A stretch of DNA of 34,341 nt from Leptospiraceae bacterium (lineage in GTDB: Bacteria > Spirochaetota > Leptospiria > Leptospirales > Leptospiraceae): assembly GCA_947458405.1 (NCBI GenBank), contig CANGZW010000030.1, positions 1 to 34,341 on the forward strand, in the 5' to 3' direction. The notes beneath the pieces are model-generated. The model ran no database searches and was not told the DNA's origin. It was given only the letters and a program-made list of their open reading frames with translations. Positions 3,473 to 27,559 of this stretch are shown here, piece by piece (the first letter of the stretch is position 1; the number at the start of each line of letters is the position of its first letter). The translations under genes and the position numbers were made by a program.

Positions 3473-3805
3473 TCATTCTAAAAGGGATTTTACCTTAGAC
3501 TTTAGCTCGGGTAAATCATTCTGAATAGTATTATATACCATTTCATAATCTACTCCAAAGTATTGATGAATAAGGACATTTCTAAAATCTTTCCAACCTT
3601 GCCATGGAAAAATCGTTTCACTTTCTTTTATATCCATAGATAGTGAATTAACTGCTTCTCCTATGATTTCAAAACTTCTTATAGTAGCATTTCGAACGAG
3701 CCTGTTTGTTTGAAATGTAGTCAGATCAATTGAATCAGTAAACTCTTCTATTTCATTGATTGCATCTAGAATATGATGTAATCTTACTTTATCACTTTCG
3801 TTCAT
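3473..3805 (-). CDS. hepT: HepT-like HEPN ribonuclease toxin (DUF86)
   Basis: A 110-residue HEPN-domain protein, the toxin half of a type VII toxin-antitoxin system. The catalytic RX4HXY motif is complete at Arg75-His80-Tyr82 (RNVLIHQY), and the family block FEIIGEA is at 45-51. HEPN toxins of this type cut RNA; the cognate MntA enzyme disarms them by attaching AMP to the tyrosine of this motif. The gene overlaps the 3' end of the mntA-like gene by 14 bases and is transcribed after it, the usual operon order. Motif and length are intact, so a functional toxin is expected. Confidence 0.9.
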   Translation of the reverse strand: MNESDKVRLHHILDAINEIEEFTDSIDLTTFQTNRLVRNATIRSFEIIGEAVNSLSMDIKESETIFPWQGWKDFRNVLIHQYFGVDYEMVYNTIQNDLPELKSKVKSLLE

Positions 3806-4088
3806 AAATCAATTTTAAATCTTTTTGGATCAAGGGTAGAATATACGGTGATAGCGAAGAGGGAGTTTGAAGATCAATTTTTATTTGGAGAATATTTTCC
3901 AATTCTCTTTTATACCTTACAAACGTAAGGAGGCTGATTGAAGGCTTAAAATCAACCAGAATATCTAAATCGCTAGTCACCTCTTGCTTTCCTTTAGCAT
4001 AAGAGCCAAAAATATATGCTTTATTTGCTTCTGTTTTTTCAAGATACTTTTTTAACGATTCAATTAAATCTGAATTTATGGAAATCAT
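3792..4088 (-). CDS. mntA: MntA-like minimal nucleotidyltransferase antitoxin
   Basis: A 98-residue minimal nucleotidyltransferase with the motif GSX10DXD: Gly28-Ser29 in IFGSYAKG and Asp40/Asp42 in SDLDILVDF, plus a likely third metal ligand Asp72 in IKIDLQT. In the known MntA/HepT pairs this enzyme adds AMP units to the HepT tyrosine and neutralises it. The start ATG at 4088 is preferred because the protein then begins as family members do and GGAG (4094-4091) sits just upstream, though close. An in-frame ATG at 4160 would add 24 residues that look unlike the family. It overlaps the hepT start by 14 bases. Confidence 0.88.
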   Translation of the reverse strand: MISINSDLIESLKKYLEKTEANKAYIFGSYAKGKQEVTSDLDILVDFKPSISLLTFVRYKRELENILQIKIDLQTPSSLSPYILPLIQKDLKLIYERK

Positions 4089-4205
4089 CTCTCCACAAGA
4101 ATGCCTATATTCATAGAAGAATGCAACATTAAATTTAAAATCCCAAGAGAAATCACACATACAAAATCTCTCTCAGGCAATTCAAATCATATTATTTTCT
4201 TTTAT

Positions 4206-5688: not shown

Positions 5689-6183
5689 ATGATTCATAAA
5701 ATATTAAAATTAATTATCATATTATTACTTAACTCTTGTATAAATGATATAGGGCAACCTTCTCGTGAAATCGAGTATAGAATGAACAAGGACAAAATAT
5801 TCAGAGAAGACGCCAAAAAGCAAATCACAGGCGCATTGGCTATATTTTATTCGAGTTGTCCCACGAATGCAAGTAGTGGTTTGAATCCTGGACTCAATTG
5901 GCAAATTCTTCTCTCCGAAAAAAAATGTAAACAAGATACGTTTCCCGGAATTAGTGGCTTAACAGATTTAACTGAGGGAAATGAGTATTTCTTGAATGGA
6001 TGTGCTGATTATAATTATTTAAGCAGAAAAGGTGTTGGAATTTGCATCCTTGCTATTTTAAATCTGAAGTGTAGTAATAGTAGTTATTTGAGTAAAGATG
6101 CACGGGACTCTTATTTTTCAACTTTCAATTTATGCAATAATGTTCTGAAAAATGAAGTTTATTTACCTACCTTTTTCTTTTGA
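5689..6183 (+). CDS. Putative small lipoprotein
   Basis: A 164-residue protein whose N-terminus ends in LLLNSC (Cys17), a spirochaete-type lipobox, so it is probably exported and lipidated. The mature part begins INDIGQPSREIEYR and has about seven further cysteines in spaced pairs (SSCPT, KKCKQ, NGCAD, GICIL, LKCSN, NLCNN), which suggests disulphides. No family recognised. Start ATG 5689; no clear ribosome binding site is seen, though GAAAATT precedes it. It follows the shortened Uma2 gene by 39 bases. Confidence 0.62.
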   Translation: MIHKILKLIIILLLNSCINDIGQPSREIEYRMNKDKIFREDAKKQITGALAIFYSSCPTNASSGLNPGLNWQILLSEKKCKQDTFPGISGLTDLTEGNEYFLNGCADYNYLSRKGVGICILAILNLKCSNSSYLSKDARDSYFSTFNLCNNVLKNEVYLPTFFF

Positions 6184-6218
6184 TTTTTAAACTTATAATA
6201 AAAATAAGAATTATTATT

Positions 6219-6359
6219 TTAATATAATTTATAAATTTTTATTTTTTCTTCTCTTCCCTTTATATCAACCTCATCTAAAAATTCATCCCTCTTTTTATCG
6301 TACAAGTTCCATACATCTTCAGAGACTAAAATTTGAGTTGCATATTTTTTATTTAATTG
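6219..6359 (-). pseudogene. Class III adenylate/guanylate cyclase, C-terminal remnant
   Basis: Forty-six codons with the end of a class III nucleotide cyclase domain: LNKKYATQILVSEDVW (the strand and helix after the active site) and, later, EVDIKGREEKIKIYKLY, matching the usual VKGK...V.IYEL close of this fold. The frame is blocked by TAA at 6362-6360 just before it and no start codon precedes. The rest of the enzyme is gone, so it is a relic. Its source gene would have made cAMP or cGMP. Confidence 0.7.
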
Positions 6360-6404
6360 TTATTTATTTTCATATTATCTGAAATTTAAACGATTACTTA
6401 AGTC

Positions 6405-6536
6405 CTATTGATTATCAAAAGCATAAAACTCTTGTCCCACTCTATTTATATGCTCAATAAGATCTAGATTTTCAAGACTAAAAAAGATCAATACATCTAA
6501 AAGATACGGGAGATTCAACTCATCTAGTTTTGTTCG
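6405..6536 (-). pseudogene. Minimal nucleotidyltransferase, C-terminal remnant
   Basis: Forty-three codons ending at TAG 6407-6405. The text LDELNLPYLLDVLIF followed by LIEHINRVGQEFY is the C-terminal third of HI0073-like minimal nucleotidyltransferases (the LPY.VDL strand and the HI.RVG helix). The GSX10DXD active site is missing. It begins inside the end of the HEPN-partner relic in another frame, the gene order expected for a HI0074/HI0073 pair. Confidence 0.65.
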
Positions 6537-6677
6537 AATACTATAGATTCTTGGTATGTATGACTAGATTGAATCAGACTTTCTACCATTTCCATCAAAA
6601 CTGACCCATCCTCTAGTAGATTTCTATGAAATGAAATACGAAATGCATCTCATCTTCCATCGAATATCCTTTTCCAT
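6524..6677 (-). pseudogene. HI0074-like HEPN nucleotidyltransferase-partner, collapsed
   Basis: Begins ATG 6677 with MEKDIRWKMR, the standard opening of the NTase_sub_bind (HI0074) family, then loses frame and most of its middle. In the next frame (6619-6524) it resumes as LLEDGSVLMEMVESL and SSHTYQES, the family's C-terminal LIEDG..W..M...R...SHTY block. About 80 residues are missing and a frameshift joins the halves. TATAAT lies at 6686-6681, three bases before the ATG. Such proteins pair with the nucleotidyltransferase whose remnant follows. Confidence 0.7.
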
Positions 6678-6773
6678 AAGATTATAATCTTACTCCTACT
6701 TAGAAAATCAATAGAGTTTTAATGAAAACTTAGATTGATAAAGAGACATAATTATTTTTAGGTTAGGTAAATC
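6678..6773 (-). repeat. Shared upstream flank, copy A
   Basis: The ~95 bases before the ATG of the HEPN relic resemble the ~98 bases before the YdeI-like gene (8311-8408). Read on the minus strand both contain ACCTAACC, ATTATGTC then CTTTA, AAACTC, TTGATTTTCTA and TAGGA, in order and at similar spacing, ending at the ATG. Includes a TTGATT (6711-6706) 28 bases before the start. Confidence 0.6.
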
Positions 6774-7212
6774 ATATTATTACAAGTTTTCAACTATAAC
6801 AATTGAGATTGCTTGGAAGATAAAAAGTAGGAATACTCAATTTCTAAGTATCATAACATAGTCTTTAAACTTAGAGCCTTAGTATATATATTTCATTCTT
6901 GATTCAGTTATCTTTTTAAATAGTAATTAAACTACTAAAAAAAATTATCTATTTACTTATGGAAATCCTCTATTTTTTAAGAAGACAATATCTTTGAGAA
7001 TATAAGAATTTGCTAACCTTTGCAATTATTACTATAAACAAAAAAATTCTTTATTAATTTATTGACCTTTTTTAATATGTACTATGAACTTAATATATAT
7101 TATTTCTTTAATTTTATTGCTGGCTTAAGTATAGTTCAAGAGTACAATTGAATTACATAGAATACTTTCAGTAGATACTGATTCAAAAAAAAATCATATA
7201 AGGTAAATAGTT
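6774..7212. other. AT-rich stretch, no gene seen
   Basis: Very AT-rich DNA with stops in all frames and no recognisable protein fragment. A TTGACC at 7062-7067 could be a -35 box, but no matching -10 and gene follow it closely. AAGG at 7200-7203 serves the next gene. Confidence 0.5.
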
Positions 7213-7503
7213 ATGATATTAGAAGTAGCCTTACTACAAATCATAGAATCTAAAACAGATGAATTTGAAATAAATTTCAAAAAAGCAAGTGAGATTATTT
7301 ATAAAAAAAAAGGATACATCAATCATGAACTACATAAATATTCATATAATAAAAATAATTATATTTTAATGGTTTAATGGGAAACTCTTGAAGACCATAC
7401 CGTTGGATTTAGAGCATCCGAGGAATATAAAGAATGGAAAAATCTACTCCATCACTTCTATGATCCATTTCCAGAAGTTGAATATTATAAAAAAATATAT
7501 TAA
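7213..7503 (+). pseudogene. Antibiotic biosynthesis monooxygenase (ABM) protein, one in-frame stop
   Basis: A 96-codon frame of the ABM dimeric ferredoxin-like fold, complete from ATG 7213 to TAA 7501-7503 except for a TAA at codon 55 (7375-7377). Before the stop: MILEVALLQI and KKKGYINHELHKY; directly after it, in the same frame: [20 protein letters not shown] and [13 protein letters not shown], both typical of the family. Intact relatives have E, K or R at this position, so a single base change (for example GAA to TAA) explains it. AAGG (7200-7203) precedes the start. These proteins are small heme- or quinone-handling monooxygenases. Either recently inactivated, or a sequencing error. Confidence 0.75.
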
Positions 7504-7710
7504 TAAATAGTAAAAACTTAGCCTATAAATAGCAATATAAATTGATATATTTAATGTAAATAATTATTATTTACATTATGATGTTCCTGAAAAAAGTTAG
7601 TTTTTGCAAATTTATTCGCAATAATCCATGTCTTTTTTCCGCCAACCGGGAGGAAAAAGATAGTAATTGCAGTTTTTTCATATTATTAAATATAAATATA
7701 TTAAATAATA

Positions 7711-8310
7711 TCACTGTTTATAATGATTTGCTCTGATATTATCTGCCGCCAAACTTACGGTTTCCTCAATACGTTTCTCGCGTGTTTCTGCCTTTTTTGC
7801 ATTTAAAATCCATTCCAATATACCTCTTTTAGATGATGGTGGAAAGGCTTCCCAGTTTTGTAAGGCTATTCTATTTTTCTGAAACAATTCATTCAAATCC
7901 TCGGGGACTTTTAGGCTTTCTACCTCATCAAGTGCATTCCAAGTTCCACTTTTCTTTGCCAGCTCTATCATTTTTAATCCAGAAGAATGCATCAGTCCCT
8001 CTTTGATAAGTTTTGAAACTTTATCTTTATTGACCTTACTCCAATTGCTTTTTATATTTCTTTTAGAAAAAAATTGATAATAGCTTTCCTTATCTCTCTT
8101 GTTGGGTTTACTATCGATCCAACCAAAACAAAGTGCCTCGTCCACTGCCTCTGGATAATATACACTCTTTGTATTACATTCTTTTTTATAGATGATGAGC
8201 CAAATAGATTTTTCACTTTCATGGTTTTTTTCTAACCAATTTCTCCAGTCTTTTCTAGTCTTCGCATGAAAGGTTTTTATACCATTTTTTAGTTCCATCG
8301 AATGCTCCAT
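7711..8310 (-). CDS. YdeI/OmdA family protein
   Basis: A 199-residue protein of the YdeI/OmpD-associated (OmdA) family, described as linked to outer-membrane protein levels and bacteriocin protection in enterobacteria; biochemical function unknown. Family signs are TFHAKTRKDWRNWLEKNH, then SVYYPEAVDEALCFGWIDSKPNKRD, then the YYQFFSKRNIKSNWSK block and the C-terminal EWILNAKKAETREKRIEE helix. ATG 8310 lines up with the ATG of the HEPN relic in the shared upstream flank; an in-frame ATG at 8298 has GGAG (8308-8305) six bases ahead and could be the real start (195 residues). Length and conserved blocks are complete. Confidence 0.88.
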   Translation of the reverse strand: MEHSMELKNGIKTFHAKTRKDWRNWLEKNHESEKSIWLIIYKKECNTKSVYYPEAVDEALCFGWIDSKPNKRDKESYYQFFSKRNIKSNWSKVNKDKVSKLIKEGLMHSSGLKMIELAKKSGTWNALDEVESLKVPEDLNELFQKNRIALQNWEAFPPSSKRGILEWILNAKKAETREKRIEETVSLAADNIRANHYKQ

Positions 8311-8408
8311 AATTGAAAAGTCATATTCCTAGATAGAAAATCAAATGAGTTTTTAGACTTTTACTCTAACTTAAAGCGACATAATCCCTAGTAGTAGGGT
8401 TAGGTTAC
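8311..8408 (-). repeat. Shared upstream flank, copy B
   Basis: Counterpart of the flank at 6678-6773, in the same orientation, ending at the ATG of the YdeI-like gene. TTGATT (8344-8339) lies 28 bases before ATG 8310, the same distance as in copy A. This copy has an extra CCCTA-GTAG-TAGGG hairpin (8387-8400) absent from copy A. Confidence 0.6.
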
Positions 8409-8440
8409 TTTGTTAAGAAGCTGAGATACACTTATAATAT

Positions 8441-8680
8441 TTAAGCTGATTTTTGTAATTTATGATAGGGACGAATTTTGGACAGTTTTTCCCAATTTTC
8501 AATTTTTTCCTTTTTGATATCATAATGATTTTGGATTTTCAAAAAATATTCTTCATTCAGTTGAAAAAATTTCCCTAAGAGAAGCGAGATATGTGCTGTA
8601 ATATTTCTCTTTCCTTTTAGAATTTGGCTGATATTTGATTTAAGAAATGCTCTCCCTTTTCCTAATGAAAAATATTTCCT
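8441..8680 (-). pseudogene. HigA-type HTH antitoxin, 5'-truncated remnant
   Basis: Seventy-nine codons open from a stop at 8683-8681 to TAA 8443-8441 with no start codon. The text ISQILKGKRNITAHISLLLG followed by KFFQLNEEYFLKIQNHYDI matches the second half of the XRE helix-turn-helix and the C-terminal helix of HigA antitoxins. The first helices are lost and there is no HigB toxin next to it. The break falls just before the promoter of the desaturase gene. Confidence 0.7.
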
Positions 8681-8707
8681 TTAATTTAAATTATAAAAAT
8701 GAATTTA

Positions 8708-8735
8708 TTGACACGAATCAAAGGTGTGTTACAAA
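8708..8735 (+). promoter_or_regulatory. Promoter of the desaturase gene
   Basis: TTGACA (8708-8713), 16-base spacer, TACAAA (8730-8735), then 6 bases to ATG 8742. The arrangement predicts a leaderless message and argues against the in-frame GTG at 8724 as the start. Confidence 0.5.
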
Positions 8736-8741
8736 CAATGT

Positions 8742-9578
8742 ATGGAAGATTTCTTAAATTTTATGGCAGGTTTGAGCTCAGCTCAAAAAGGAATATGGCT
8801 CTTCGCATGGGTTTCAATGGGATTATTTTTTGAACAGATATTTCCATTTACCTCTAAAGATTATCATAAAGTTAAACATAATCTGGTAAATCTCACTTTC
8901 TTAGCCATAACAATGATAATCAATACTCTCTTTAGTATCTTCATTGTTAAGATTCTTTACCCTTTCATAGAGAGCAATCAAATTGGATTGTTGTATTTAA
9001 TCGAACTCCCCACCTGGGCTGAGTTACTCATCGCCCTACTCTTCTTTGACTTTTCTGCTCAGTTTTTTATCCATCTATTATTGCATAAAATAAAGCCTAT
9101 CTGGCGTTTTCACATGATTCATCACAGTGACACAATGGTTGTCGCAACCACCGGGACACGTCATCATCCTCTAGATTATTTAACTAGGGAGCTTTTTTCT
9201 CTTGTTGTAATCTTAGTAACAGGTGCTCCCTTCGCTTATTATATGGTTTACCGTATTATCACAATTCCCTGTACATACTTTACGCATTCCAATATAAATC
9301 TACCTCTTTGGCTGGATAAAGCTCTCAGTTATTTGATTGTAACACCTAATCTTCATCGCTTTCATCATCACTACCAACTCCCTTATACAGATAGTAACTA
9401 TGGAAATATCTTATCTATCTGGGATCGATTATTCGGAACATTACGGTATGACGATCCAAATATGATAAAGTTTGGTATAGATATTCTAGAAGGAAAGAAT
9501 GATGAAGATATTTTGTTTCAACTGGGAGTTCCTTTTAATAGAAACATACCTTCCACTGTTGTAGTCAAAGGATCTTAA
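8742..9578 (+). CDS. Fatty acid hydroxylase / sterol desaturase family membrane protein
   Basis: A 278-residue integral membrane di-iron oxygenase of the fatty acid hydroxylase superfamily. The histidine clusters that hold the two irons are all visible: HLLLH (111-115), HMIHH (124-128), RHHP (140-143) and HRFHHHY near residue 210. Hydrophobic segments lie at about 18-35, 48-75 and 92-110 and after 150. The usual reaction is O2-dependent hydroxylation or desaturation of a lipid; whether the substrate is a fatty acid, sterol-like lipid or carotenoid cannot be told. No neighbour of lipid metabolism helps. GTG 8724 is in frame but lies inside the promoter, so ATG 8742 is chosen. Confidence 0.9.
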   Translation: MEDFLNFMAGLSSAQKGIWLFAWVSMGLFFEQIFPFTSKDYHKVKHNLVNLTFLAITMIINTLFSIFIVKILYPFIESNQIGLLYLIELPTWAELLIALLFFDFSAQFFIHLLLHKIKPIWRFHMIHHSDTMVVATTGTRHHPLDYLTRELFSLVVILVTGAPFAYYMVYRIITIPCTYFTHSNINLPLWLDKALSYLIVTPNLHRFHHHYQLPYTDSNYGNILSIWDRLFGTLRYDDPNMIKFGIDILEGKNDEDILFQLGVPFNRNIPSTVVVKGS

Positions 9579-27016: not shown

Positions 27017-27559
27017 ATGAGTGCCATTCCACAAGAGTATATCAAAAAGTTTACAAAGGATGATTACTATGCTCTCCACAAAGAAGGGAGATTGTCCCGT
27101 CATACAGAACTATTGGACGGGGTATTGATTGAACACATGACCATATCCCCCAAACACAGACAAATCGTTTATAGACTTCGTAGAATCTTAGAAAATATTT
27201 TACCTGATAAAAAACTTGTGTTACAAGAAAGTCCCTTATCCACACCCACATCCGAACCCGAACCCGATTTGAGTATCGTGACAGGCACATTGGATGATTT
27301 TCGAGAGACTCATCCCAGCACAGCCGATTGGGTCATAGAAGTAGCAGTCACCTCTCTTTCCCTTGATCTTAGCAAACGCAAAATCTATGCCAATGCAGGG
27401 ATACAAGAGTATTGGATTTTAGATCCCGAAGAAAATAGAGTCCTTATTTTTTCTGATCCATTTGAGGATGGGTATCGTAACGAGAGGGTAATACGTAAGA
27501 CTGAAGTTATTAAAATTCCGGTGGAGCCGTTTACGGAAATACTTTTGGATTGGATGTGA
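27017..27559 (+). CDS. Uma2 family PD-(D/E)XK nuclease-like protein
   Basis: A 180-residue intact Uma2 protein. TKDDYYALHKEG opens the fold; the likely active site is Asp84 (EPDLSIV), Glu108 (WVIEVAV) and Lys120 or Lys122 (LSKRKIYANAG), followed by EYWILDPEENRV. The sequence SEPEPDLS just before Asp84 is typical. Biological role of the family is unproven. ATG 27017 is preceded by a consensus promoter and no Shine-Dalgarno. The base composition is less AT-biased than that of its left-hand neighbour. It lies 124 bases before the RNA ligase gene on the same strand. Confidence 0.9.
   Translation: MSAIPQEYIKKFTKDDYYALHKEGRLSRHTELLDGVLIEHMTISPKHRQIVYRLRRILENILPDKKLVLQESPLSTPTSEPEPDLSIVTGTLDDFRETHPSTADWVIEVAVTSLSLDLSKRKIYANAGIQEYWILDPEENRVLIFSDPFEDGYRNERVIRKTEVIKIPVEPFTEILLDWM

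Follow-up and report, generated by a model that had tools for sequence, protein, structure and literature searches.

Two unrelated genes on the minus strand of a Leptospiraceae contig are preceded by similar sequence, which raises the question of how one flank came to stand before two different genes. The first-pass annotation of the window (the whole stretch of DNA analysed, 34,341 nucleotides) offered two readings, namely a shared element of cassette type, bearing an integron-like core, into which genes have been placed, or a duplicated flank behind which the gene was later replaced. Its flank alignment, from ACCTAACC to the start codon, is as claimed and also extends roughly 20 bases beyond the ATG. 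In all, the two copies share about 113 bases of the minus strand, running from ACCTAACC through the ATG to ATTCGATGGAA:

6655..6768, minus strand: copy A of the shared stretch, from ACCTAACC through a -35-like TTGATT and the ATG at 6677-6675 into the first HEPN codons, to ATTCGATGGAA
8293..8405, minus strand: copy B of the shared stretch, ending inside the start of the YdeI-like gene, with an upstream ATG at 8310-8308 and an in-frame ATG at 8298-8296

Three blocks anchor the alignment on the minus strand: ACCTAACC (6768-6761 in copy A, 8405-8398 in copy B), ATTATGTC (6752-6745 and 8385-8378) and TTGATTTTCTA (6711-6701 and 8344-8334). The motifs CTTTA and AAACTC align after ATTATGTC, and TAGGA followed by the ATG aligns after TTGATTTTCTA. 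Beyond this point the match enters both reading frames as ATGGA and then ATTCGATGGAA (6665-6655 and 8303-8293). The copies are 71% identical over the ungapped columns of the longer alignment, and the event that produced them is therefore old and blurred. Similarity is limited by ACCTAACC upstream and ATGGAA downstream, and local tests outside either limit stay at the level of chance. These local tests leave unsupported a larger duplication that would reach past the shared stretch and include a nearby helix-turn-helix (HTH) remnant. In a global test, the 60 bases upstream of the stretch are borderline (168 of 3000 shuffles score as high), so the upper boundary is not beyond doubt. The HTH remnant itself lies directly upstream of copy B, at 8443-8680 on the minus strand; it resembles a HigA-like antitoxin by eye, has lost its N-terminus and matches HTH_3 with an E value of 0.0021, below the cut-off.

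The similarity between the flanks is far beyond chance. The gapped A-B score is 73, compared with a mean of 23.0 (s.d. 4.2, maximum 48) for 5000 dinucleotide-shuffle pairs. When the copies are compared without gaps in the register set by the ATG, they score 22, against a maximum of 19 among 300,000 random AT-rich pairs from the same genome and of 17 among 10,296 pairs drawn from 144 of its ATG-anchored flanks. The alignment is thus better than random AT-rich intergenic pairs, the comparison by which the first-pass annotation had proposed to judge it. The margin is weaker in another gapped scheme, wherein A-B scores 46 and the best of 6548 AT-rich upstream pairs scores 44. That single pair speaks for a chance resemblance of AT-rich flanks, but no control reaches the A-B value among the 5000 shuffles, the 300,000 AT-rich pairs or the 10,296 flank pairs, and we consider such a coincidence extremely improbable. 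Scores above the controls, combined with chance-level results just outside the ends, indicate that the similarity is real and forms a block of about 113 bases, bounded on both sides.

If this block were a cassette-type element, many copies before different genes might be expected, as had been proposed. A blastn search of the own genome with either flank returns the other copy at an E value of 0.034, amid short matches of similar or weaker score, and flank A additionally gives two short matches at an E value of 0.018. In the own genome, which is 96.5% complete, a profile built from both copies recovers only A and B (E up to 0.1). The wider profile search took in the order (30 genomes at E up to 0.1) and, with stricter filters, the phylum (296 genomes at E up to 0.001); both sets include the own genome. 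It yielded ten weak matches outside the own genome, nine of which (L072, L073, L074, L075, L076, L079, L080, L116 and L117) fall inside open frames of 199-801 codons measured stop to stop. The tenth, L077, is short, promoter-like and located before a short frame. Thus, the sequence searched holds no further copies, and the expectation of many copies in this and related genomes was not borne out.

The cassette reading also drew on a heptamer that is present, as had been noted, at the far end of both copies:

6762..6768, plus strand: GTTAGGT, bounding copy A on the side away from the ATG; ordinary for this genome
8399..8405, plus strand: GTTAGGT, bounding copy B on the side away from the ATG; ordinary for this genome

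The integron core-site consensus is GTTRRRY, which GTTAGGT fits. This heptamer occurs 12 times in 196,660 bases of the own genome (both strands, copies A and B included, with some loci overlapping) and is therefore not special, so the meaning of an integron core that had been attached to it does not stand. Folding with RNA parameters gives the plus strand of copy A one long hairpin that reaches the heptamer. Under DNA parameters, another fold is better than this hairpin, the two copies have no hairpin in common, and the folds of either strand of either copy are not clearly better than those of shuffled sequences (z of -1.15 to -0.08). Furthermore, an integron integrase scoring above the TIGR02249 cut-off was found in none of the eight family genomes; sub-threshold matches occur in all eight and also in all 14 control genomes. 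The own genome does encode a 356-amino-acid tyrosine recombinase (L115, on G000:C102) whose similarity to integron integrases (E 3e-29) is under the curated cut-off.

Compared with integron attC sites and gene cassettes, the locus shares a heptamer of GTTRRRY form near a gene boundary and differs in having no integrase over the cut-off, no array, no shared hairpin and two copies only. A mobile, attC-like element that receives genes would account for the same flank before two unrelated genes, for the fit of the heptamer and for the copy A hairpin obtained with RNA parameters. But the small copy number, the integrase result, the commonness of GTTAGGT and the DNA folds together rule out, for the sequences searched, a family of cassettes, and leave this explanation with a very slim probability. 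Searches of positions 6000-9000 against Rfam gave no match up to an E value of 1, plasmid sequences gave no match, and phage sequences gave one partial match of 41 bases (E 1e-2) in an unannotated record.

The identity of the gene behind copy A bears on where the flank came from. This gene is the relic of a HEPN(PF08780)-MNT toxin-antitoxin operon that has been deleted twice, and it persists in three pieces:

6648..6677, minus strand: HEPN N-terminus, MEKDIRWKMR, found by tblastn with family HEPN proteins
6542..6649, minus strand: middle part of HEPN, in another frame after the loss of about 50 codons, found by a PF08780 profile match and tblastn
6423..6539, minus strand: C-terminal part of the MNT nucleotidyltransferase antitoxin, found by tblastn (E 4e-10)

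The E value for the MNT piece was obtained with the MNT protein of L066 as the query and a target of 3 kb only. Roughly 50 HEPN codons are missing at the first joint, and the end of HEPN together with the N-terminus of MNT is missing at the second. The HI0074-like HEPN label of the first-pass annotation is upheld by a PF08780 match to the relic with an E value of 4.7e-5 and 24.9 bits, which carries one internal stop and does not reach the curated cut-off of 31.8. Joining the two HEPN fragments improves the match to an E value of 3.1e-7 and 30.9 bits, still short of this cut-off. The MNT piece, at 44 residues, has no Pfam match.

Intact counterparts exist at five HEPN loci in three family genomes (L065, L066, L067, L069 and L070), and all five have HEPN as the upstream gene and, by eye, an MNT-like frame just downstream. 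The relic has the same order, HEPN and then MNT, but unlike these operons it carries two deletions and a HEPN split between two frames, whereas copy B keeps at most the first codons. Operons that pair a PF08780 HEPN with MNT are called type VII in PMC11586414 and also figure in PMC7641770. The arrangement in which HEPN is upstream, seen in the five family operons and in the relic, departs from the statement in PMC3710099 that MNT is almost always the upstream gene. Nearby, at 3473-4160 on the minus strand, the window also carries an intact HepT-like/nucleotidyltransferase pair, which belongs to the other HEPN-MNT type.

Copy A runs in frame into MEKDIRWK, a HEPN signature that resembles the starts of family HEPN genes, and the 11-mer ATTCGATGGAA encodes I-R-W-K in this frame. 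In 393,320 both-strand bases of the own genome (overlapping loci counted twice), ATGGAA occurs 301 times and the 11-mer at copies A and B alone. After its ATG, copy B matches copy A at ATGGA and, following a gap, at ATTCG, and this match is too short for comparison at the protein level. A HEPN promoter conserved across the family was considered and rejected, as the flank is present at none of the five intact loci (the upstream sequence of L070 is partly masked). Because an intact HEPN gene with the flank was not found among them, the case for HEPN as the original owner, which we infer, is built on copy A and a few codons.

The gene behind copy B had likewise been labelled correctly:

7711..8310, minus strand: intact OmdA/YdeI-like gene, 199 amino acids from 8310 (PF13376, E 1.5e-20), with its start at 8310 or 8298

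An ATG corresponding to codon 5 of this gene (8298) is present in 14 of 23 inspected relatives, and three more have one at codon 4. Only the final six bases of the shared stretch reach into codon 5 and beyond. In addition, the blastn match to the nearest Leptospirales relative (in genome G005) begins at window position 8295, right by the end of the shared stretch. Given both observations, the first four codons (MEHS) and the flank upstream of them look like an addition. The G005 protein carries a separate N-terminal extension, MEIK... with MS before it, which equals MEHS in length, and for this reason the ATGGA of copy B could be native. The last six shared bases, ATGGAA, coincide with the usual YdeI start and with part of the HEPN R-W-K codons. 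The joint between flank and gene is close to the YdeI start.

The YdeI/OmdA gene was probably acquired from Bacteroidota, judging from its relatives. Of 31 YdeI loci found, 26 are Bacteroidota by title and one is from Leptospirales. A tree of 26 rows places the window gene with the Leptospirales gene (support 94/93, not starred) among Bacteroidota rows; no starred clade contains the window gene, and transfer is not proven by this tree. A close DNA match to the gene is present in two of the eight family genomes, the own genome being one of them. When window frames of at least 90 codons were compared with 16 kb around the G005 gene, YdeI was the sole match.

Genes with an OmdA domain are present in four of the eight family genomes. 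The flank is absent from six other family OmdA loci, where the best scores are 31 in a scheme in which shuffles of A and B average 23, and the idea that it forms part of the YdeI family was rejected. The own genome contains two further OmdA-domain genes of another type, L122 (G000:C3) and L124 (G000:C21), both without the flank. These results bear on a reversed account, in which YdeI or a third gene was the first owner of the flank and a HEPN-MNT operon was placed behind one copy. The direction is not directly evident and none of the five HEPN relatives shares the flank, which leaves room for this alternative. But codons of HEPN type precede the usual YdeI start within the shared stretch, which is absent from all six OmdA loci, and we rate the reversed account as improbable.

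Both copies have a promoter-like element at the same distance from the start codon:

6707..6711, minus strand: TTGAT, -35-like (predicted), 34 bases before the copy A ATG
8340..8344, minus strand: TTGAT, 34 bases before the copy B ATG

Copy A also has TATAAT as a -10 box, whereas copy B has no clear -10 box at that place. Across 121 upstream regions, TTGA[CT] peaks at 31-35 bases before the ATG with 11 matches, copy B among them, against 0-5 in other 5-base bins. This clustering suggests that many mRNAs of this genome may be leaderless. In Leptospira interrogans, about 440 mRNAs have a leader under 10 nucleotides (PMC5243855). The gene-anchored count is the layout evidence used. Genome-wide, TTGAC occurs 361 times at 28-31 bases before any ATG and 290 times at 38-41, a comparison that is not clean because reversed-pattern controls give 407 and 383. 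A promoter scan was uninformative (22 sites, against 19.1 in shuffles). TTGAC-type -35 boxes about 31-36 bases before the ATG also precede Uma2-family genes at 2712 and 5323 (identified by Pfam), and another precedes a Uma2-like gene at 27017 (by eye).

Such a layout might produce similar flanks by convergence, with each gene independently having a -35 box about 34 bases before the ATG and a leaderless mRNA, and perhaps a shared operator, in the absence of common descent. The peak at 31-35 bases, the short leaders of L. interrogans and the presence of ATTGACTTTCTAA at the same distance from the ATG of frame L077 in G004 (Uma2-looking by eye) are all in keeping with this. However, 11 leaderless-like flanks reach an in-register score of at most 12 among their 55 pairs, compared with 22 for A-B. 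Taken alone, the sequence upstream of the -35-like box has a significant score of 32, attained by four of 5000 shuffles, although 14 of the 10,296 real flank pairs attain its in-register score of 12. The match also carries on into the reading frames. The placement of TTGAT at 34 bases, common in this genome, accounts for part of the A-B similarity and not for the rest. We consider convergence unlikely and infer common descent.

The explanation that we favour, and hold to be probable, is promoter capture, wherein YdeI was joined, near its start codon, to a paralogous copy of the 5′ end of a HEPN-MNT operon and the toxin genes were lost. The shared stretch would then be the 5′ end of a type VII operon, comprising a promoter region, probably of the leaderless type, and roughly six initial codons of HEPN. 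Two copies, since diverged, would once have stood side by side. At copy A, the operon would have decayed to the relic through two internal deletions. At copy B, the operon body would have been lost and the YdeI/OmdA gene joined at its own start codon or immediately ahead of it, possibly through microhomology at ATGGAA, a sequence that the HEPN codons share with the YdeI start. YdeI is predicted to be driven by the captured toxin-antitoxin promoter, the flanks being putative promoters; the order of events at the two copies is likewise a reconstruction. Of the two original readings, flank duplication with later gene replacement fits the evidence, and the cassette-element half falls away. The locus represents genome rearrangement of an ordinary kind and no new mobile element.

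Promoter capture is a known kind of event, and the finding is real but ordinary. PMC11111574 describes, in its introduction, how horizontally acquired genes capture promoters by illegitimate recombination. In the cases it describes, as in the fusion proposed here, a silent or foreign coding sequence is joined to a nearby promoter by deletion or duplication in the absence of long homology; the window case differs in that it is reconstructed from an old natural locus, in which activity and selection are putative. If the favoured explanation is true, the locus is a natural example of an acquired gene gaining its promoter from a decaying toxin-antitoxin module. Where promoters are apparently leaderless, promoter and start codon make up one short travelling unit, and fusions of this type are therefore simple. 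As a single old case, it leaves current views unchanged. A broader proposal is that the 5′ ends of toxin-antitoxin operons, whose compact leaderless promoters extend no further than the start codon, are recurrent landing and fusion points that give incoming genes expression in these spirochaetes. We regard it as a long shot; were it true, the window would show one such fusion beside its parent type.

Between the copies, at 7213-7503 on the plus strand, lies a pseudogene for an ABM-domain protein (antibiotic biosynthesis monooxygenase) with an in-frame TAA at 7375-7377, which matches PF03992 with an E value of 1.4e-8 when the stop is read as X. Imperfect palindromes that are 82-96% self-complementary, possibly terminators, are located between small genes at 6183-6236, 7552-7578 and 7680-7711.
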